Shown here piece after piece: positions 8,517 to 36,900 of a stretch of DNA of 38,585 nucleotides (positions within the stretch are counted from its first letter, which is position 1; each line of letters starts with the position of its first letter). Under the pieces are notes generated by a model, which ran no database searches, was not told the origin of the DNA, and was given only the letters and a program-made list of their open reading frames with translations. The position numbers and the translations under genes were made by a program. The DNA lies in contig JAFWOB010000095.1 of the NCBI GenBank assembly GCA_017510065.1, positions 1 to 38,585 on the forward strand, read 5' to 3'. Origin of the DNA: Parasporobacterium sp. Its GTDB lineage: Bacteria; Bacillota; Clostridia; Lachnospirales; Lachnospiraceae.

Positions 8517-9470
8517 ATGGAATTCAGGGAATTCAAGGGAAAAACCGTTCATGAAGCCATAACGGAAGCATTGATCGAGCTGGAGATCACCAGCGATATG
8601 ATCGAATATGAAGTCATTGAAGAAGGATCTGCAGGTCTTCTGGGCCTGTTCAGCAAAAATGCCGTGATCCGTGCCCGCAGAAAAGAAGACGTCGGCGCAG
8701 ATGAGGATCTGTTCGACATCAAGGCCGAGATCCGTTCCGGATCTTCCCTGCTGGATGGCGGCGAGAAGCCCAAAGCAGAAAAGAAAGCGGCAAAGCCTGC
8801 TCAAAAGGAAAAAGAAATCGAAGCCGACAAGGCTGTGAAGCAGAATCTGAAAGCATCCAAAAAAGGTCCTGCACAGGCGCAGAACGCTCCTGTCAGCAGA
8901 GCAGCCAATGCTCCTGCAGCCGCCAAGACGCCGAACAAAGGGGCGGATATCGCAGCCGTTCGTGAGAACGCCCTTAAGGAAGAAAAGCCTGCCAAGCCTC
9001 TTGCTCCGGCAAAGGATGTGGACGAGAAGCCGCTGAGAGACGTCCTGAATGCGATCTTTGCCAAACTGGATATCACAGCGGATATCAACATTGATGTCAA
9101 CAAGGAAGAGCGGACGGTCAATATCACAGTAGTGGGCGAAGATACCGGAGAGCTGATCGGCAAGAAAGGCCAGACCCTGGATGCAGTGCAGTACATCCTG
9201 AGCATCATCGTCAACAAGGATCAGGACAGCTATTTCCGCGTCAAACTTGACACCAACAATTACCGGGAGCGCCGTCAGAAGACCCTGGAGAACCTGGCCA
9301 GGAACATGGCCGCCAAGGTCAAGAAGACCCATCGGAAAGTCACACTTGAGCCGATGAACCCCTATGAGAGACGCGTGATCCACGCATATCTGCAGTCCGA
9401 CAAGCTGGTCACTACCAAGTCAGAAGGGGAAGAGCCAAACCGCAGGATCGTGATCTATTACAAGAAATAA
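8517..9470 (+). CDS. jag: RNA-binding protein Jag/KhpB
   Basis: Jag (KhpB) is a cytoplasmic RNA-binding protein linked to cell-wall growth and division in Firmicutes. The 317-residue product has the Jag-N domain (MEFREFKGKTVHEAITEALIEL, with SAGLLGLFSKNAVIRAR). A Lys/Ala/Pro-rich linker follows at about residues 80-165. The KH domain (GELIGKKGQTLDAVQYILSIIVN) and the R3H domain (LEPMNPYERRVIHAYLQ) complete it. The start ATG follows GGAGGAAG. It is the last gene before a terminator, which closes the rpmH-jag group. Confidence 0.95.
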   Translation: MEFREFKGKTVHEAITEALIELEITSDMIEYEVIEEGSAGLLGLFSKNAVIRARRKEDVGADEDLFDIKAEIRSGSSLLDGGEKPKAEKKAAKPAQKEKEIEADKAVKQNLKASKKGPAQAQNAPVSRAANAPAAAKTPNKGADIAAVRENALKEEKPAKPLAPAKDVDEKPLRDVLNAIFAKLDITADINIDVNKEERTVNITVVGEDTGELIGKKGQTLDAVQYILSIIVNKDQDSYFRVKLDTNNYRERRQKTLENLARNMAAKVKKTHRKVTLEPMNPYERRVIHAYLQSDKLVTTKSEGEEPNRRIVIYYKK

Positions 9471-9524
9471 TCTGCGCGGCTGGCGAATGTGGCCTGTGCG
9501 CAGGCGGCGAAACAGCAGAATTGT

Positions 9525-9580
9525 AACAGCCTTCGAAAATTCAGGATTGATTTATTTTTCGAAGGCTGTTATTTCTTTAT
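9525..9580 (+). terminator. Terminator after jag
   Basis: AACAGCCTTCGAAAA (9525-9539) pairs perfectly with TTTTCGAAGGCTGTT (9556-9570) and is followed by ATTTCTTTAT. The loop is 16 bases. This is a strong intrinsic terminator 55 bases after the jag stop codon. Confidence 0.85.
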
Positions 9581-9636
9581 CTGGAAGCAGATAGTCGGTG
9601 TGCGGCGTGCGAGTTGCAGTGACTTGCGGCGAGGTT

Positions 9637-10005
9637 GCTGCGAAGAGAAGCATTTTTCTTGATTTCGTATACCGGGCTGCTACGAAGAGAAGCATTTTTC
9701 TCGATTTCGTATACTGGGATGCTACGAAGAGAAGATTTTTTTCGATTTCGTATACTGGGATGCTACGAAGAGAAGATTTTTTTCGATTTCGTATACTGGG
9801 ATGCTACGAAGAGAAAAATTTTCTCGATTTCGTATACCGGACATGCTACGAAATGAAGCATTTTTGCTCTCTTCGTATATTCAGCGTATACGAAATGAAG
9901 CGTTTTTGCTCTCTTCGTAGCATCGGCGTATACGAAAATGGCATTTTTTCCTCTCTTCGTAGCAAGGCGTGCTACGAAAATAAACATTTTTCCTCTCTTC
10001 GTAGC
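9637..10005. repeat. Nine tandem palindromic units, 42-bp period
   Basis: Units begin at 9637, 9679, 9721, 9762, 9803, 9845, 9886, 9928 and 9971, a period of 41-43 bp. Each has arms GCTACGAA (or GTATACGAA) and TTCGTATAC (or TTCGTAGC) around an AT-rich middle, so each could form a hairpin of about 35 bases or bind a dimeric protein. Units 1-5 run GCTACGAAGAGAA to TTTCGTATAC. Units 7 and 8 are in the opposite orientation, and units 6 and 9 are mixed. The array fills most of the 588-bp jag-mnmE gap. Both strands stay open across it only because 42 is a multiple of three; no convincing protein is encoded. Confidence 0.9.
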
Positions 10006-10058
10006 AGGAGCAGGACACGGCATCAAAGCAGCAAAATAACAGACAGGACAAAAAGTCA

Positions 10059-11459
10059 ATGAATACAGAAACCATAGCCGCCATTTCCACGGCGATGAAT
10101 AATTCAGGCATCGGCATTATCCGGATCAGCGGGGAAGAAGCGTTCGATATCATCGGAAAGATCTTCCGGCCGGCCAATCCGGACAAAAAGCTCAGCGAAG
10201 TCAAAAGCCACACAGTCCATTACGGCACCATCATGGATGGGGAAACGATCGTGGATGAAGTGCTGGTTTTGACCATGCGCGCGCCGCACACCTACACCCG
10301 CGAAGATACGGTGGAGATCGACAGCCACGGCGGGATGTTTGTCATGCAGCGCATCATGGAACTGGTACTGAAAGCCGGCGCCAGACCTGCCGAACCAGGG
10401 GAATTCACCAAACGGGCCTTTGTGAACGGCAGGATCGACCTGTCCCAGGCAGAAGCCGTGATCGATATCATCAATGCGGAAAATGATTACGCCCTGAAAA
10501 GCGCCGTCACCCAGCTCAAAGGATCTGTTTCGGAGAAGATCCGGCAGCAGCGATCTGCGCTTTTGGAGCAGATCGCTTATATTGAAGCGGCACTGGATGA
10601 TCCGGAGCATATTGAGATGGAAGGGTATGGGCAGGTTCTTCTTCCGAAGCTGCAGGAGATCGAAGACTGTGTGGAGGAATTGATCCGTTCGGCAGATGAC
10701 GGCCGGATCATTAAGGAAGGCATCCGCACCGTGATCCTGGGAAAGCCAAATGTAGGCAAGTCTTCCCTATTAAATGCCCTGGTTGGCTCCGAGCGGGCAA
10801 TCGTGACCCAGATCCCCGGAACTACCCGGGATGCGCTGGAAGAAAGCATCCGCCTCAAGGACGTAACGCTGAATATCATTGATACGGCAGGGATCCGCAG
10901 TACAGAAGACATTATTGAAAAGATCGGGGTAGACAAAGCCCGGGAATATGCGGCCGAAGCGGATCTGATCGTCTGGGTGGTGGACAGTTCCTCCAACCTG
11001 GATGAAAATGATCTGGAAGTGGCGCAGCTGATCGCCGGGCGGAAAGCAGTGATCTTGCTGAACAAACAAGATCTTCCGGAGGTGACCGGGAAAGAAAAGC
11101 TGTTTGAGCAGCTGGGAAGCAGACAGACAGCGCTTGAGAAGATCCCCGTGATCGGGATCTCCGCTTTGAAAGAATCCGGACTGGATATGTTTTCAGAGAC
11201 AGTGTGCCAGATGTTCTATAACAAAGATATCAATTTCAATGACCAGGTATACATCACCAATATCCGGCAGAAGAAAGCACTGACGGAAGCGAAGGAAAGT
11301 CTTTCCCGCGCAGTGGTGAGCATTGAAGACGGCATGCCGGAGGATTTCTTTACGATTGATATGATGGATGCCTACTCTGCCCTTGGCCGCGTGATCGGGG
11401 AATCCGTGGAAGATGATCTGGCAGATGAGATCTTTGCCAAGTTCTGCATGGGCAAATAA
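10059..11459 (+). CDS. mnmE: tRNA modification GTPase MnmE
   Basis: MnmE acts with MnmG to add an aminomethyl-type group to U34 of certain tRNAs. The 466-residue product has the N-terminal tetrahydrofolate-binding domain (TIAAISTAMNNSGIGIIRISG). The inserted Ras-like GTPase domain has G1 GKPNVGKSS (228-236), TTRD, DTAG and NKQD, and the protein ends in the functionally required FC-x-GK tail (FCMGK). Only a weak ribosome binding site (AGGACA) precedes the ATG. mnmG follows after 43 bases, as is usual. Confidence 0.97.
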   Translation: MNTETIAAISTAMNNSGIGIIRISGEEAFDIIGKIFRPANPDKKLSEVKSHTVHYGTIMDGETIVDEVLVLTMRAPHTYTREDTVEIDSHGGMFVMQRIMELVLKAGARPAEPGEFTKRAFVNGRIDLSQAEAVIDIINAENDYALKSAVTQLKGSVSEKIRQQRSALLEQIAYIEAALDDPEHIEMEGYGQVLLPKLQEIEDCVEELIRSADDGRIIKEGIRTVILGKPNVGKSSLLNALVGSERAIVTQIPGTTRDALEESIRLKDVTLNIIDTAGIRSTEDIIEKIGVDKAREYAAEADLIVWVVDSSSNLDENDLEVAQLIAGRKAVILLNKQDLPEVTGKEKLFEQLGSRQTALEKIPVIGISALKESGLDMFSETVCQMFYNKDINFNDQVYITNIRQKKALTEAKESLSRAVVSIEDGMPEDFFTIDMMDAYSALGRVIGESVEDDLADEIFAKFCMGK

Positions 11460-13388: not shown

Positions 13389-14144
13389 ATGTTTCACGTG
13401 AAACAATTTGAAAAACTGGCTGAATATTGCCTGAAAAACGGGATTCGATACGGCCAGACGGAAGAAGAACGATTTAAATCCTTTTATGAATTCCTGGTCG
13501 AAAAGAATAAAGTCATGAACCTGACGGCAGTCACGGAACCGGAGGAAGTGGAACTTCGACATTATATTGATTCAGTTTCTTCTGTTCCGGTATTAAAAGA
13601 ACTGTTTGGGGACAGAACATCAGAAGAACCGGTAAAAGGGATCGATCTGGGGACCGGCGCGGGCTTTCCAGGCGTTCCGCTGGCCATTGTTCTGCCGGAA
13701 TACCGCTTTACTTTAGCGGATTCTTTGAATAAACGGGTTGATTTCCTGAAAGAAGCCGTAAAAAAGATGGATTTACCTAATGCACAGCCGCTGCAGGGGC
13801 GCGCGGAAGAGATCGGACAGAGCGATCTGCGGGAAAGTTTTGATCTTTGTGTTTCCAGAGCGGTGGCAGATCTTTCTGTCTTACTGGAATACTGCCTCCC
13901 GTTGGTTAAGATCGGCGGATATGCGGTTTTGTATAAATCCGGAGAATTTAAAGATGAATTACATCGTGCAGAATACGCAATGCGTCTTCTTGGGGGAATG
14001 CTGCAGGATGTCAGAGAATTCGTTCTGCCGGGATCAGACATCAGACGCAGCTTTATCATTATCGAAAAAAGAAATGCGGCGCCGATAAAATATCCGCGCC
14101 GCTCGGGAAAACCATCAAAATCACCGTTAATGACTAAACAATAA
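13389..14144 (+). CDS. rsmG: 16S rRNA (guanine-527 N7) methyltransferase RsmG (GidB)
   Basis: RsmG methylates G527 of 16S rRNA using S-adenosylmethionine. Starting at ATG 13389 it is 251 residues, beginning MFHVKQFEKLAEYC. An alternative GTG start at 13398 is better spaced from AGAGGA, and a TTG at 13380 is also in frame. Methyltransferase motif I is GIDLGTGAGFPGVPLAIVLPEY; a later motif is LQGRAEEIGQ; and FDLCVSRAVADLSVLLEYCLPLVKIGG matches the family. A short non-conserved tail after EKRNAAPIKYPRRSGKPSKSPL ends the protein. It sits between mnmG and parA as usual. Confidence 0.95.
   Translation: MFHVKQFEKLAEYCLKNGIRYGQTEEERFKSFYEFLVEKNKVMNLTAVTEPEEVELRHYIDSVSSVPVLKELFGDRTSEEPVKGIDLGTGAGFPGVPLAIVLPEYRFTLADSLNKRVDFLKEAVKKMDLPNAQPLQGRAEEIGQSDLRESFDLCVSRAVADLSVLLEYCLPLVKIGGYAVLYKSGEFKDELHRAEYAMRLLGGMLQDVREFVLPGSDIRRSFIIIEKRNAAPIKYPRRSGKPSKSPLMTKQ
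13390..13405. promoter_or_regulatory. parS: parS site inside the start of rsmG
   Basis: The 16-bp palindrome TGTTTCACGTGAAACA at 13390-13405 is identical to the B. subtilis parS consensus bound by ParB/Spo0J. It overlaps the first codons of rsmG, coding FHVKQ. It lies about 1.8 kb before parB, where origin-proximal parS sites are expected. Confidence 0.93.
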
Positions 14145-14302: not shown

Positions 14303-14332
14303 AGAGGAATGTTTCACGTGAAACATTCCTCT
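14303..14332. promoter_or_regulatory. parS: Extended parS palindrome before parA
   Basis: A 30-bp perfect palindrome is centred on an exact parS, TGTTTCACGTGAAACA at 14310-14325, with AGAGGAA on the left and TTCCTCT on the right. The palindrome is followed by TCTTTTTA, so it could also act as a transcription terminator for rsmG. A lone half site (TTTCACGT) is at 14269-14276. It lies 110 bp before the parA start. Confidence 0.92.
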
Positions 14333-15209: not shown

Positions 15210-15227
15210 ACGGAGAAGGTGAAACTT

Positions 15228-16100
15228 ATGGTTAAAAAAGCAAAACCCGGGCTGGGAAAAGGCCTGGATCTTCTGATCCCGAAATCGGAGCCGGTGGAAG
15301 AAAAAAAGACAACAGATCCACAGGTGCTGAAGATCTCACAGGTGGAACCGAACCGGAACCAGCCAAGAAAACAGTTTGACAAAGAAAGCCTGCAGGAATT
15401 GGCCGGATCTATCAAACAATACGGAATCATCCAGCCGATCATTGTGGCCAAAAAAGATGATTACTACGAGATCATTGCCGGTGAACGACGCTGGAGAGCC
15501 GCTAAAATGGCGGGTTTAAAGGAAGTTCCCGTTGTGATCAAGGAATATTCCGAAAAAGAGATTGCAGAGATCTCCCTAATCGAGAATATTCAGAGGGAAA
15601 ACCTGAATCCCATTGAAGAAGCCAAAGCATACAAGAGTCTGATCGAGGAATATAACCTCACGCAGGAAGAACTTTCTGAGCGGATTTCCAAGAGCAGGAC
15701 CCAGATCACCAATACCATGAGGCTATTAAAGCTCCATGATAAAGTACAGAAAATGCTGATCGACGGCTCCATCAGCGCGGGCCATGCAAGAGCGCTCCTG
15801 GGCCTGGAAATCCAGGAAGAACAGCTTCTTACCGCACAGAAGATCGTGGCAGAAAACCTGAGTGTCCGTCAAACAGAAGACCTGGTGCGCCAGATCAACA
15901 ATCCGCCGAAAAGCAAAAAATCTTCTCCGAAGATCAAAAACAGCGTATTTTACAAGGATCTGGAGAAGCGCATGACGGAAGCGCTTGGCACAAAAGTAAA
16001 GATCAACCAGAAGGAACAGGGAAAAGGCCGCATTGAGATCAGCTATTTCTCTGAGGATGAGCTGGACCGGATCTTTACGATCATCAACAGCAGCATTTAA
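15228..16100 (+). CDS. parB: Chromosome-partitioning protein ParB (Spo0J)
   Basis: ParB binds parS and spreads as a CTP-dependent clamp. I chose ATG 15228 (MVKKAKPGLGKGLDLLIPK), well spaced from GGAGAAGGTG; a GTG at 15219 is in frame. The product is 290 residues. The ParB N-domain has QVEPNRNQPRKQFDKESLQELAGSI, then the CTP-binding ERRWRAAKMAG box and the following EKEIAEISLIENIQRENLNPIEEA. The helix-turn-helix part is LTQEELSERISKSRTQITNTMRLL, with GHARALLGL after it. The two exact parS sites lie just upstream. Confidence 0.97.
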   Translation: MVKKAKPGLGKGLDLLIPKSEPVEEKKTTDPQVLKISQVEPNRNQPRKQFDKESLQELAGSIKQYGIIQPIIVAKKDDYYEIIAGERRWRAAKMAGLKEVPVVIKEYSEKEIAEISLIENIQRENLNPIEEAKAYKSLIEEYNLTQEELSERISKSRTQITNTMRLLKLHDKVQKMLIDGSISAGHARALLGLEIQEEQLLTAQKIVAENLSVRQTEDLVRQINNPPKSKKSSPKIKNSVFYKDLEKRMTEALGTKVKINQKEQGKGRIEISYFSEDELDRIFTIINSSI

Positions 16101-27973: not shown

Positions 27974-30900
27974 ATGAAGAAACTACAAAGCGCATTAAGT
28001 ATTTTCCTTGCAGCTACATTCATCGCTACAAGCGTTGCTCCGTATGCAACTTATGCGGAGGAGATCATAGAAGATCCAACTGTAGCATATGAGCAGGAAA
28101 CCGAAGCTCCGACATATGAGGAGCCCACGGTTTATGTAGAGCCGGAAACCGAAGCCCCTTACGTAGAGCCGGAAACCGAAGCTCCTTATGTAGAGCCGGA
28201 AACCGAAGCTCCTTACGTAGAGCCGGTAACGGAAGCTCCGACAGAAGCCCCGACTGAGGCTCCGACAGAAGCTCCGACAGAAGCTCCGACGGAAGCCCCG
28301 ACTGAGGCTCCGACGGAAGCTCCGACGGAAGCCCCGACTGAGGCTCCGACCGAGGCTCCGACGGAAGCTCCGACACAGGCTCCGACCCAGCCTGCAACCG
28401 AGGCTCCGACAGAAGCTCCGACCCAGGCTCCGACTCAGCCTGCAACCGAAGCTCCGACCGAAGCTCCGACCCAGGCTCCGACTACGGCAGCAGAAGAAGA
28501 GACTACCACTGCAGAAGAAGTGAAGTATGTCTCCAATCTGACTGTGGGTACCGAAGGCAACTTCCAGGTATACGCAGCACTGTACTCTCAGGTTCCGGAT
28601 ACTACTACCCTGAAGATCCGTACCTATGATGACATGCTGTCCTGGTACAGCTATGACGGCAAAGCACTGACCAATGCTTTCATCAATCCGGTGAAGCAGA
28701 GGGTCGCTGACTACTACGGACTGGATATTACGAACGAAGCGTTCGACAGCATCTTCAAGCTGGTATATCCGTTCGAGTTCTCTCTGCTGGACAAAGACAG
28801 CAACGAGTCCAAGCCGGCCCTTGATATTGCCATGAGCATTCCGAACAATGATGTAGTGACGATGCTCAATGAAGGCAAAGCACAGGTTCGTGTATTCATT
28901 TATGACAAGAACAATCTTTACAATGTAAAGATGCTTAACACATCAAACGAAGCTCCGATCTGGTGGGACAACTACTACAGAACATTCTCCACCAGATTCA
29001 ATACCCAGATCTGCCCGAACTGCTATGTGGCAGTGATGGTCCTGGACGCTGAAGCTATGGCCAAGGTTTCCAAGGAAGCTCAGAAGGCTCCGGCTGAGGA
29101 GAAGGAAGAAGACGGCGAAGATGATGACGCTGACCCTGACTCCGAACTCAGCTTCTCAGGTGTTCTGTCCCTGGGAGCTGAAGGAAACGATGTGGCAGCT
29201 CTGCAGACCAAACTTGCAGAACTGGGATACTACAATGGAGAGATCACTGCACAGTTCGACGAAGCAACTGATGCGGCAGTCAAAGCGTTCCAGGCAGACA
29301 ACGGTCTGGATGTTGACGGCTTTGTAGGCCCCGCTACTCTGTCTGCTATAAATGCTGCAGAAGCTCCGGCTGAAAAAGAAATCATCTTTATGGAAGAAGA
29401 GATCCAGGACGAGGAAGTAGTCGACCTGAATCAGGAAGATGAAGAAACAGCAGAAGAAGATGCTGAAGAAGAAGCCGAAGAAGAGATCGAAGAAGAAGTC
29501 GATGCTCTGATGGATGGTGAAACAAACCAAGAAGACGGTACAAGCTCCAATATAATGGACTTTATTCCTCCTGGAACGATTTCGATGATCCATAAGTCGG
29601 ATGACTCCCCGGTAACCGAAGCCAATCCTGCAAGACCGGGAGAGACAGTGGTTCTCACCTTGTCAAATGTTGCGGAGACCTTAAATGGACTTCAGTTTGA
29701 CATGACCGAGCTATCTTTGAATATCCCGGCAGGACTTGATCCTCCTGAAGAGGACGTGACCGGGACATCTACCGTATATATTACAGATTATAGTGTATCG
29801 CCACAACAGACATATGCTATGCCAAACACCTATGTAATCGGTGCGGATGGAAAAATCAGATACACATGGACGAACCCGTGTACTGAGGAGAGACCTGCAG
29901 GTTCAGGTAATATTGTTGATGTATATGCTTTGGCATGCAATGCAGAAAACTTTAAATTCAGCCTCAGTTTTGAAATAAAAGTAGGTGATGATGCAGATGA
30001 TATCACATTCAGTAATGACATCACTTTCCCGGTAGACCGGTCAGTTTCACTCACAGTCACAAAGTCGATCGAGATACCTGGAATGTCTACAATTTCGCAA
30101 GCGCAGGCACAGCAAATGACATTCGCTCTGTATTACGCGGATGGAGTTACTCCGGTAAAAGATGAAGATGGAAACGACATCACGTTCACGCGGAATGACA
30201 TGACACCCAGTGGCTTGGCAAATGGCCAGTGGAGTATTTCCGGTCTCACAGCTACTACATATCCTGCAGTCTTTGTAGTAAAAGAAACAGGACATCCTGA
30301 AATTGAGGGATATACCTTCCTTTCAGCAGGAGATAATGTCGTGACCGAGAAGGAGGTAACAATACCTGCCGGTCAGTCAGGAACTGCAGCGCTGAAGAAC
30401 AGATATACCAAAGACGTTTCACATCTTAAGGTAAAGAAGTTATTCCCAGCCGGTGCTTTGAATCTTGGCAACCTGACGGATACTCAGAAGGCGAAAATCT
30501 CATTCACGGTAAAAAATTCAAGTGGTGCTACTGTAGCATCCGCCACGCTGGCAGAAACAAATAAATTTGACGCAAATGGTGAATGGAATGTCGGAACTCT
30601 TCCGCCGGGCGAATATACGGTTGTTGAGACAGCTGAACTTGAAGGATATACAAGATATGCTACATATAAGGTAGACACAAGTGCGGCACAGGAAGGTTCC
30701 GAAGCTTCGGTTACATTAGTAACAGATCAGAATCATGTCGTTGAGTTTAACAATACATATACAGAAGAAAGAGATAAACTGAAAATTAAGAAAACCTTTG
30801 AGGGTGCAACACTTACTGATGCGGAAAAGGCTAATATTACATTTACTATCACAGCTCCTGATGGAACCACAACAACAGTGAAATATTCGCAGTTCACAAA

Positions 30901-33900: not shown

Positions 33901-36900
33901 TACGAAGGCCGAAACGGTAATAGCAGAGTTCACTTATGCAGACATCCTAGCTGCACCAAATCAAGAATATGTTATCGAGAATCTTCCTGCTGGAAATTAT
34001 ACCGTTACTGAGACGGTTATCGATGAAGAATCCATATTCTACGGCAAGACACGCAGAACCTCCGTTAGAATCGGAGCCGGCGATTGGACTGAAAACTACA
34101 CTACGGGTGTCCAGGTAGACAGTAAAGATAAGGTAGTTACATTCAGAAACAAATACGGAAACACTGATGTGCTTACTGTACAGAAGGAGATCGGAGGAGC
34201 TCCGACGGTTTACATTGAAAAGAATGACTCACTGTATCCGGTCTGGAAGTTCAATCTCAAGATAGCTAACCTTGAGCCTTCAACTACAAGTAATGGATCG
34301 ACAGATATCATCGATTACATTGACAACAAAGCCGTTTTGGGTCTCTTCGAGGTCGTAACGGATCCGGCTGATCTGGCGCTTATTGATGCGAAGGATCCTG
34401 GTGCTGCAACAATTGCAAACAAGCTCACTACTACAGAAGCGAAACCGACTGCAAATGTTGCACTCGTAGAGGACTATGACAACGGCAAAGTGACATTCCA
34501 CATCACCGGAATTACAGCAGATACAGCTACGAGCAATGATCTGACTTACTACCTGATCCCGAAGGATGCGAATGCTCTGGAAACACTGAATGCCAGAGCA
34601 GGTACAGCGGCGGGTACTCCTAATAACCAGCTGAAGAAGTACTTCGCCAATGTTGCAGAGTATAAGAAGCTGCCTCTATTTGACTATGAGACAACGAATC
34701 AGGTAAATTATGAGTATGAAAAATTAGTAGTCAAGAAAAGCATCCTTAACTATAATTCTGAAACACATCAGCTGAAAGATGAGTATGGCAATGTCGTTGA
34801 CTATGCTTTGTATCAGTTCGTTATCAATCCTGAGGAGATGAAACTCAGTACTGATGGTTATATAGACGTAACAGACAGTTTCTCGACAAACCAGTCAGTG
34901 GATCCGGAAAGTATAACTGTTAAACGTTGTGTTTATGATAAGGTCACTGGTACAGTTATTTCGACAAGCCCTGCAGAGGAGGGGGATGTAACTCGCAAGG
35001 ATCTTTCGGGTCACTCGATCGTGCTGACGCTGAGAGATGAGACATGCTTCATAGTTACATACACAGCTACTCTTCTTTATACCGCTGATGATATTGGTAA
35101 TCCAGTAGAGCTGAATAATCTTGTCGAGGTAGAAGGTTACAGCGATGGAATAGAGCCTACGATAATTCCTACCAGCCAGGGCGGCGGCTCTGTATATCGG
35201 ATCAGACTCAGGAAGTATGAGAATGGTAACCTTGACAATCCGCTTAAGGGTGCAAAGTTCTATATGTACCTGGATAAAACAGCCGCCGATAATGCCAGAA
35301 CATCGGGGAATTATTCACAGGGTATCGGACCGTTTGTTACAGATCAGAATGGCATTATCATGATTACGGAATATACTGATAAGCAGGGTTATGTACATCA
35401 CATAACTGCTGATAAGGTCAATCCGATCATTTACTACTTTGTAGAAGCAGAAACACCTGTAGGATACTCAATGATCGATTATACCGTTAAGGTTCAGCTT
35501 GCCGCTGAAGGTGAGACCGCTGATTACACGCAGTACATTTACCTTCCAACTGATACTGTAGGTATCAAAAATACTCCGTTTGATACGATGGTTGCTCTTG
35601 GCGCACTCAAGAACTTTGAGACCAACGGAAGTGCAAGACAGCTTGTAGAAGGTGAATTCTCCTTCAGAATTAGGGCTAAGAATAATGCAAACATTCCTAT
35701 GCCTGAAGGAACCACCGGCGGTGAAAAGATTGTCGCTAATGATGCAGAGGGCAAGGCAGTTTTCGGAGCCATTTACTACGATACGGAAGATGTCGTAACA
35801 AGGGACAACACAGGAAAAGTCGTTGGAACGTCCAAGACTTTCACTTACGAGGTAAGCGAAGTGCTGCCGAATGATCTTGATCCTAACGGCAACAAGAACG
35901 GCGTACATTACGATTCTCATGTGTACGAAGTAGCTGTTACGGTATCATTGGTTGATGAAGATCATGACGATGTATTAGAGAAACTTAAAGTAACAAGCGT
36001 AACCGTAGACGGGGATCCAGTTACTGCTGATTCTACTAAGTATCAGTATCACGATACTTCTACGGATCCTGAGACCATTATAAATGTCGACTTGTATTTT
36101 GCAGGCCTGACGAATGAGTACAATGCTGAAGGCCCATGGACTCCTTACATCCAGAAAGCTATCGAGGGACGTAATCTTGATGAAGATGATGAGTTCACAT
36201 TCCAGATCAAGAAGGGTGATAAGGTTCTTGCAACAGGTACGAATAATGCAGACGGAACAGTCAGCATGACTCCTGCAAGCCTGACATTTACACTTGCTGA
36301 TCTTGGAGAAAATACCCTTACTGTCCATGAAGTGTATACTATTGAGACAGATGATGGAATTTACGAACTTGCTGCTGATGAAACAGTTAAAGTTACCGTT
36401 GAAGAAAAGAAGGATGATGATAATAATCCGATTTATGATGGTACACTGAAAGTCACATCAGACAAAGCTACTTTCGAAGCTCCTCTCGTCATGACGAACA
36501 AGTTCAAAGCCAACGGTTCATGGCATCCGAATGTTGTCAAGACACTTGTAGGCCGTGACATGCAAGAAGGTGAAGTATTCAACTTCGAAGTTCACAAGGA
36601 TACTGCAGAAGGCGAAGTCGTCATGACCGGTACGGCAACTGCCGGTGCAAACGGTGAACCTGTGAATGTAGTATGGACTCCTGAGAATCTCACGTATAAT
36701 CAGGACGATCTGAAGGATGCGGATGGTAACTATATTCCTTCCAAGAACTTCACCTATGTCGTCAACGAGGTAGCCGGCAATGCAGCAGGCATCACATATG
36801 ATAGCCATACTGATACGGTCGTTGTGACTGTAGCACTTGAGAAAAACGAAAACGGAAAAATTAAGAAACAGCTGAAGGTTACAGAAAACCCGGATACCGC

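Follow-up and report, generated by a model that had tools for sequence, protein, structure and literature searches.

Dispersed intergenic arrays of inverted words in a Parasporobacterium genome as putative docking platforms for a DNA-binding protein

The gyrase sites known as BIME-2 are intergenic repeats which draw a DNA-shaping protein to the space between operons, one repeat family serving one protein. The arrays described in this study differ from them in using several words (inverted motifs of 6-8 bp) per genome. REP sequences and BIMEs are described in PMC2817692 and PMC3733652 as short imperfect palindromes which are located between genes, several per cluster, are specific to a lineage and occur in many copies; the former source also describes a RAYT gene flanked by inverted REPs. 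Our arrays are likewise intergenic palindrome clusters of lineage-specific sequence and high copy number, but they have no GT(A/G)G head, their loops are AT-rich, and no solo units were found in the genome analysed here (G000). Moreover, they contain one orientation switch, whereas REPs and BIMEs alternate, and they show no units near a RAYT-like gene, no covariation at fixed registers and mostly whole-turn spacing.

Two further systems are comparable. The sopC centromere of the F plasmid is described as twelve 43-bp tandem repeats with ten 16-bp inverted motifs (PMC6238139). It has in common with our arrays a period of about four helical turns and inverted tandem words, which are protein-bound in sopC and putatively so here; in contrast to sopC, the arrays are chromosomal, are present in many copies with several words per genome, have variable DNA between the words, and are without a par gene among the neighbours scanned. 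BrickBuilt of Porphyromonas gingivalis is presented in PMC4596501 as an intergenic, species-limited minisatellite inside a MITE, found 19 times in one genome and composed of 23-bp repeats without spacers, with a leader and a tail. Our arrays are also intergenic, tandem, numerous per genome and species-limited, but they have inverted words, variable cores and no common flanks.

The array between jag and mnmE

The window (the whole stretch of DNA analysed, 38,585 nucleotides) is contig C48 of the 3.47-Mb draft genome G000. Between jag/khpB (8517-9470, plus strand; Jag_N, KH and R3H domains) and mnmE/trmE (10059-11459, plus strand), the initial annotation had placed nine palindromic units with a 42-bp period, and this was borne out: nine A-loop-B units occupy positions 9636-10006 (9639-10003 between the outermost words), with loops of 18-19 bp, spacers of 11-12 bp and a period of 41-42 bp. 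At 10.45 bp per turn this corresponds to 3.9-4.0 turns, in agreement with the four turns proposed, and Tandem Repeats Finder resolved the region into two adjoining arrays with periods of 41 and 42. The complementary arms TACGAA and TTCGTA were also confirmed: exact TACGAA-N17-20-TTCGTA matches occur eight times in the window, all within the array, as compared with a mean of 0.00 in 100 shuffles, and unit 1 carries TGCGAA as its left word.

The units have the form (TGC/TGA/GTA)TACGAA-loop-TTCGTA(...), and each combines one A half-site (TACGAAGAG) with one B half-site (TACGAAATC/AAT). Orientation was called from the GAG/ATC asymmetry inside the arms. In the five forward units, with the A half-site on the left, the loops are 19 bp long in units 1 (9639-9669) and 2 (9681-9711), and 18 bp long in units 3 (9723-9752), 4 (9764-9793) and 5 (9805-9834); units 3 and 4 are identical and look like a recent tandem duplication. 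The orientation switches at the central spacer TACCGGACATGC (9835-9846), where two B half-sites face each other. It is followed by units 6 (9847-9877), 7 (9889-9919), 8 (9931-9961) and 9 (9973-10003), all with 19-bp loops and the A half-site on the right. The switch reported earlier is thus real, and the second part of the array, formerly read as mostly reversed, proved tidier, as all four units are reversed. Outward A half-sites stand at both ends, TGCTGCGAAGAG ... CTCTTCGTAGCA.

The array starts about 65 bp past an inverted repeat, AACAGCCTTCGAAAA...TTTTTCGAAGGCTGTT (9525-9570, plus strand), which was recognized by eye, was missed by a hairpin scan with a loop limit of 8, and is a probable terminator of the jag operon. 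An open frame of 154 codons (9598-10062, plus strand) runs through the array; it matches no Pfam family and is probably due to chance. Elsewhere in the window, the repeat finder reported long 12/27/36/48-bp tandem repeats (GAAGCTCCGACA and kin) at 28132-28483.

Exact copies of TGTTTCACGTGAAACA, which we take to be the parS consensus, are located at 13390-13405 and 14310-14325, approximately 3.4 and 4.3 kb beyond the array and ahead of parB (15219-16100); the former is the parS noted previously at about 3.4 kb. The origin centre suggested to lie 3.5 kb away could not be confirmed, since a scan for exact TTATNCACA gave one DnaA-box match in the window, at 35311.

A dispersed family and its other words

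TACGAA arrays were identified by BLAST, exact patterns and a sequence profile derived from 70 units. G000 contains ten (on contigs C31, C48, C84 continued on C129, C110, C167, C172, C186, C204, C231 and C239) and a second species, G012, contains four (C80, C99, C126 and C189), with 103 unit records counted, two of them repeats from the C84/C129 overlap. No such array was found in the 12 other genomes of the genus; a single weak profile match (E 0.008 to 0.08) was obtained in each of three of them. With 150 candidates scored per genome, there were no solo units in G000 and two weak matches in G012 (C58 and C150). In 120 genomes of the family (one per genus), the inverted TACGAA pair was counted 60 times in G000 and no more than seven times in any other genome; it exceeded a reversed-pattern control in six of the 119 genomes other than G000. 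The window array had no blastn match in plasmids or phages (E up to 0.01), and a one-spacer pattern had none in viral contigs. Among 84,980 named genomes, a set from which the genome of the window or those nearest to it may be missing, a two-spacer pattern yielded three contigs of the second species, a coding repeat (L073) and nothing else. The search of the genome and its relatives, set beforehand as a test, therefore revealed a dispersed family and not a single copy close to the origin.

Apart from some units that could not be classified, thirteen of the 14 TACGAA arrays change once from plus to minus; C231 has no switch, and the order minus then plus was observed in none of the 14. Because of the single switch, 13 of the 14 have outward A half-sites at both ends, i.e. 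terminal inverted repeats, and the outermost half-sites are whole. The other TACGAA arrays are 66-76% identical to that of the window, mostly through the words. Contigs start or stop inside or beside arrays (G000:C84/C129; G034:C4 and C75); short-read assemblies therefore seem to break there, and the arrays are probably undercounted.

The genes adjacent to the other TACGAA arrays are unrelated: they encode, among others, a rubrerythrin-like protein, a DtxR-like repressor, an M18 peptidase, an oligopeptide-binding protein, a radical SAM protein, a class-III aminotransferase, an Asp/Glu racemase, a 2-hydroxyacid dehydrogenase and a PucR-type regulator. DNA-binding regulators accompany the arrays at C186 (DtxR-like; at C80 and C126 through homologs) and C239 (PucR-type), the others being without one. 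Among 20 neighbour proteins scanned, seven of which had no Pfam match, there was no protein family common to the arrays. In the jag-mnmE gap of ten readable relatives within the genus (50-330 bp), no such array is present; for G009 and G012 no mnmE ortholog was found, and G010 was left out of this comparison. In G004 and G007 the gap (L101, L102) holds a single long palindrome of the GTCAAGTGCATTGTGCTTGCACGAATGCA type. Since TACGAA arrays are dispersed beside unrelated genes and absent at jag-mnmE in the ten relatives, the window array does not appear to be an origin landmark.

With reading frames picked by a simple script, the gene pairs flanking 13 TACGAA arrays were co-directional (9), divergent (2) or convergent (2), and those of 12 TTAGAAA records, orthologs included, were co-directional (3), divergent (1), convergent (5) or cut by the locus edge (3). 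This indicates that the arrays are not a fixed part of one type of untranslated region. The array upstream of the M18 gene, examined by eye (L069:9600-10060, L058:8960-9380), lies in both species between a TGATAAAAT promoter-like motif and a ribosome-binding site, and is thus probably part of a leader transcript.

A match to the M18 aminopeptidase gene exists in every one of the 14 genomes of the genus. Four of the 13 upstream regions read contain an array (G010 was excluded as a partial gene match), and the four species have four different arrays: TACGAA of the TGC/TGA type in G000; TACGAA/ATCGAA of the GTA type in G012, which BLAST did not match to the G000 array at E 1e-8, despite 90-94% identity of the neighbouring flanks; GCCGAAA/TTTCGGC in G001; and TCGGGCC/GGCCCGA in G002. 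In the nine other genomes no array was seen by eye in 420 bp each.

Further words were revealed by a detector, and its forerunner version, which look for clusters of inverted 7-mers (six or more in 450 bp, on both strands). The intergenic words obtained in this way were TTAGAAA, AAGAACA/AAGAATA, TCATGCG and TGCATGA in G000; AGGGATA, GAGGATA, TACATGA and GCTAACA in G001; GGAGTAA (twice) and GGCCCGA in G002; and GGTGGTA in G007. Intergenic clusters numbered six in 279 kb of G000 (stretches not selected for arrays), five in 173 kb of G001, three in 171 kb of G002 (one being the known M18 array) and one in 80 kb of G007. None was detected in G013 (85 kb), G005 (78 kb), G006 (80 kb) or 65 kb of four more genomes of the genus, nor in 16 genomes of the order (285 kb); 331 kb from 20 genomes of the family gave two, one of them array-like (G065). 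First-order Markov controls, which cover the eight genus sets, contained no clusters. It should be noted that the stretches are non-random samples (contig starts or places known from other matches), and that the detector misses known arrays, namely TACGAA at C239 (L065) and at the contig end C129 (L060), and the array upstream of the G001 M18 gene.

Several detector rows were judged to be protein-coding, either on inspection or through the ORF filter, and were discarded: CTGCAGA (L057, L200), CTGATCA (L192, L196), CCGGGAA (L195), ATCCGGA (L205), ATGATCA (L215), two rows of the order sample and three of the additional genus sample. The ORF filter also removed a CGGAAAT cluster in L172, in which direct repeats predominate and which is located ahead of a small helix-turn-helix gene; on this 5.3-kb contig (G000:C5), direct CGGAAAT copies recur about every 22 bp and are followed by inverted ones (L172:2004-2257), which looks like an operator of the iteron or excisionase type. 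One family-sample row passed the filter and was rejected for a layout unlike that of the arrays: three tandem GGGCTGC-CTGCG-GCAGCCC hairpins just past an apparent tRNA 3' end (L233:3043-3157, G020).

TTAGAAA arrays number 17 in G000 and eight in G012; the 12 other genomes of the genus gave no match. TACGGTT, the word of G065, forms arrays in G065 and in G034, a member of another genus, and in none of the other 118 family genomes. Taken as sequence patterns, the TACGAA arrays are one dialect of a wider class of intergenic arrays with inverted 6-8 bp words and rigid spacings. No description of such arrays was found in the open-access literature searched.

Spacing, word conservation and competing explanations

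The spacing of the words is specific to each dialect. Loop/linker lengths are 22/5-6 for AAGAACA, AAGAATA and GAGGATA, 21/17 for TACATGA and TCATGCG, 22/16 for GGCCCGA, 23/15 for GGAGTAA, 23/16 for TACGGTT and 22/26 or 17 for GGTGGTA. If TTAGAAA (9 and 30-31) is set aside, the linkers step by approximately one helical turn (5, 16, 26). For 11 of the 13 measured words the period is 41-42, 52-53 or 62 bp, i.e. 3.9-4.0, 5.0-5.1 or 5.9 turns at 10.45 bp per turn, although several periods are based on a small number of exact spacings and the phasing was recognized post hoc. The off-phase words are TTAGAAA (50 and 71-72 bp) and AGGGATA (118), and GCTAACA, being too irregular, stands outside the set. 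The TTAGAAA linker is 9 bp in all 86 matches to a pattern which allowed 8-10. The pattern left the offset between half-arrays free, and this offset is 122 bp (17 arrays) or 121 bp (4 arrays) in all 21 arrays with two same-strand matches, some of which are mutual orthologs. Its loop of 27 was imposed, having first been seen without the pattern.

Two TACGAA loci are common, unit by unit, to G000 and G012 (8 and 8 units; 8 and 7). With both loci pooled and sites with unequal labels left out, the arms had changed at 2/178 positions and the inner loop at 27/178 (Fisher p 6e-7); the other differences were 5/69 in spacer centres, 3/90 and 5/87 in arm-side triplets, and 63/904 in flanks, which are partly coding. 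In three G000/G012 pairs of TTAGAAA arrays, the words had changed at 0/147 positions and the others at 55/424; two of these pairs are biased because they were picked by exact-word search, and the pair not selected in this way (L060-L068) gave 0/56 and 21/154. Homogenisation of the loops, as expected from gene conversion between arrays, was not seen. In this comparison of one species pair, where the window's own array is without an ortholog because no mnmE was found in the G012 assembly, the words have been kept at long-established orthologous sites and the intervening DNA has drifted.

Several alternative readings have to be weighed against these data. According to the first, which we regard as unlikely, the arrays are a MITE-like, non-autonomous mobile repeat whose words are binding sites of a transposase or recombinase and which spreads by copying. 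Such an origin would suit the presence of one-word arrays at ten places in G000 and their absence from the jag-mnmE gap of ten relatives, the different M18 arrays of two species between nearly identical flanks, and the two GGAGTAA arrays of G002, which lie at loci 8 kb apart and are 91% identical over 269 bp. A cluster of about 7 kb, present twice in G012 (L066 = C126, L067 = C80; about 89-94% identical), carries different arrays in the same place: the two copies agree in the first unit and differ in the remaining units and in some 80 bp past the array. The cluster encodes a protein of 1030-1050 aa, a DtxR-like repressor and an S11 carboxypeptidase (the last two named from G000 homologs), and contig C186 of G000 has one copy of it. 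As far as these alignments tell, arrays do appear at loci and do get copied or exchanged, but the REP or MITE origin raised in the initial annotation finds no support in three marks that were looked for: there is neither a GT(A/G)G head, nor a RAYT gene linked to the arrays, nor a target-site duplication. In 15 array records, two of which are halves of one array cut by a contig end, there was neither a target-site duplication nor a common flank or flank motif, and direct repeats near the two array ends (within 40 bp) did not exceed 6 bp, the longest lying off the boundary. No recombinase family or par gene was present among the 20 neighbour proteins (7/20 without a Pfam match). Furthermore, selfish copies should lose their words at old orthologous sites, where the TACGAA and TTAGAAA words are kept, and most copies of both families are alike in words and spacing, with little common sequence between.

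The second alternative, that the units act as hairpins in RNA or single-stranded DNA (either REP/BIME elements with a RAYT protein or a hairpin-rich RNA), appears improbable. The predicted folding of array RNA is much more stable than that of shuffled sequences (z -10.4 and -12.9), which may stem from the repeated complementary words, and the self-complementarity of the inner loops also exceeds that of shuffles (mean z -0.96 for TACGAA and -0.98 for the other words pooled). However, none of the five pairs predicted by RNAalifold (70 units) shows compensatory arm changes, the arm subtype ATATCGAA breaks two outer pairs, and a search of Rfam over 9000-10600 gave no match at the gathering score and two matches far below the cut-offs. 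The inner positions are without covariation at fixed registers in 86 TTAGAAA units (53 after thinning) and in two sets of 34 and 29 diverged TACGAA loops. For TTAGAAA, symmetric-register pairing was observed 462 times against 463 expected when partners were dealt among the sequences, with z from -1.5 to 1.9 (13 registers, two sets); for TACGAA, z ranged from -2.8 to 1.0 (nine registers each for 18- and 19-base loops). As the test considers one register at a time, register-shifting stems between units could escape it. The reading of the unit as RNA was rejected on these grounds, and the small RNA suggested at the outset is disfavoured. The symmetry of the loops thus reflects a preferred composition rather than compensating change: in TTAGAAA loops, A/T predominates close to the words, G/C at about positions 7-9 and 18-22, and A at 12-17. 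This composition could fit a bent or wrapped double-stranded protein site. As for the GT(A/G)G head and GC-rich palindrome of REPs, the inner loops of the TACGAA arrays have 28% G+C, and the prefixes of their arms are mostly TGC, TGA, GTA or AATA.

A RAYT-like Y1 transposase gene with a C-terminal extension does exist in G000 (C199:35062-35799; L118, L151), and it has no match in the 13 other genomes of the genus, including the array-bearing G012 (79% complete). Its 11-kb stretch contains no units, and a link between this single gene and the arrays was rejected.

It is also quite improbable that the arrays consist of sites for site-specific recombination. The sequence TTCGTATCA-N5/6-TGATACGAA is like the core site of a tyrosine recombinase, its half-sites and spacing recall loxP (TTCGTA-N12-TACGAA), and arrays are exchanged at one locus. 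Crossover regions must match, however, and the central bases differ between most neighbouring sites, being alike only in apparent fresh tandem duplicates; the linkers of other words (9, 16 or 26) are not of recombinase geometry, and, as stated above, the scanned neighbours include no recombinase family. A centromere-like segregation site near the origin, suggested by the 41-42 bp period with inverted words (cf. the 43-bp repeats of the F-plasmid parS) and by the proximity of parS 3.4 kb away, is very improbable in view of the nine other TACGAA arrays beside unrelated genes in G000, the four in G012 and the lack of such an array at jag-mnmE in ten relatives.

A putative docking platform between genes

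Conserved words, diverging loops, the absence of fixed-register covariation and periods near whole turns in 11 of 13 words together favour sequence-specific binding to double-stranded DNA and disfavour hairpin RNA or REP elements. Of the interpretations offered in the initial annotation, the protein-binding landmark fits best; the segregation site is not supported, the hairpin small RNA is disfavoured, and a MITE-like expansion finds no support in the three marks named above. We therefore propose, with a probability of roughly 0.55, that the window array belongs to a family of platforms, dispersed between genes, on which a sequence-specific DNA-binding protein docks in several copies, probably with an architectural or insulating function. 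This protein would read the inverted words (here TGC/TGA/GTA-TACGAA-GAG/ATC), and its copies, placed on one face of the helix, would cooperate along 150-370 bp; the resulting complex might shape the chromosome or insulate adjacent transcription units from each other. Each word may have its own cognate protein, and the words may turn over between species faster than the positions of the arrays.

An extension of this proposal to the Lachnospiraceae is more tentative, and we would sooner doubt it than rely on it: genomes such as G000 would carry dozens of intergenic arrays built on several 6-8 bp words, each word with its own protein, as a many-dialect system of chromosome architecture or insulation in which the words change and the positions and spacing persist. 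Dispersed intergenic repeats are usually taken as mobile debris or hairpins, but words which are held while the cores drift are what would be expected of a chromosome landmark written by a protein. The rapid change of the words may moreover offer a natural series in which the joint change of DNA-binding specificity and of its sites could be followed.
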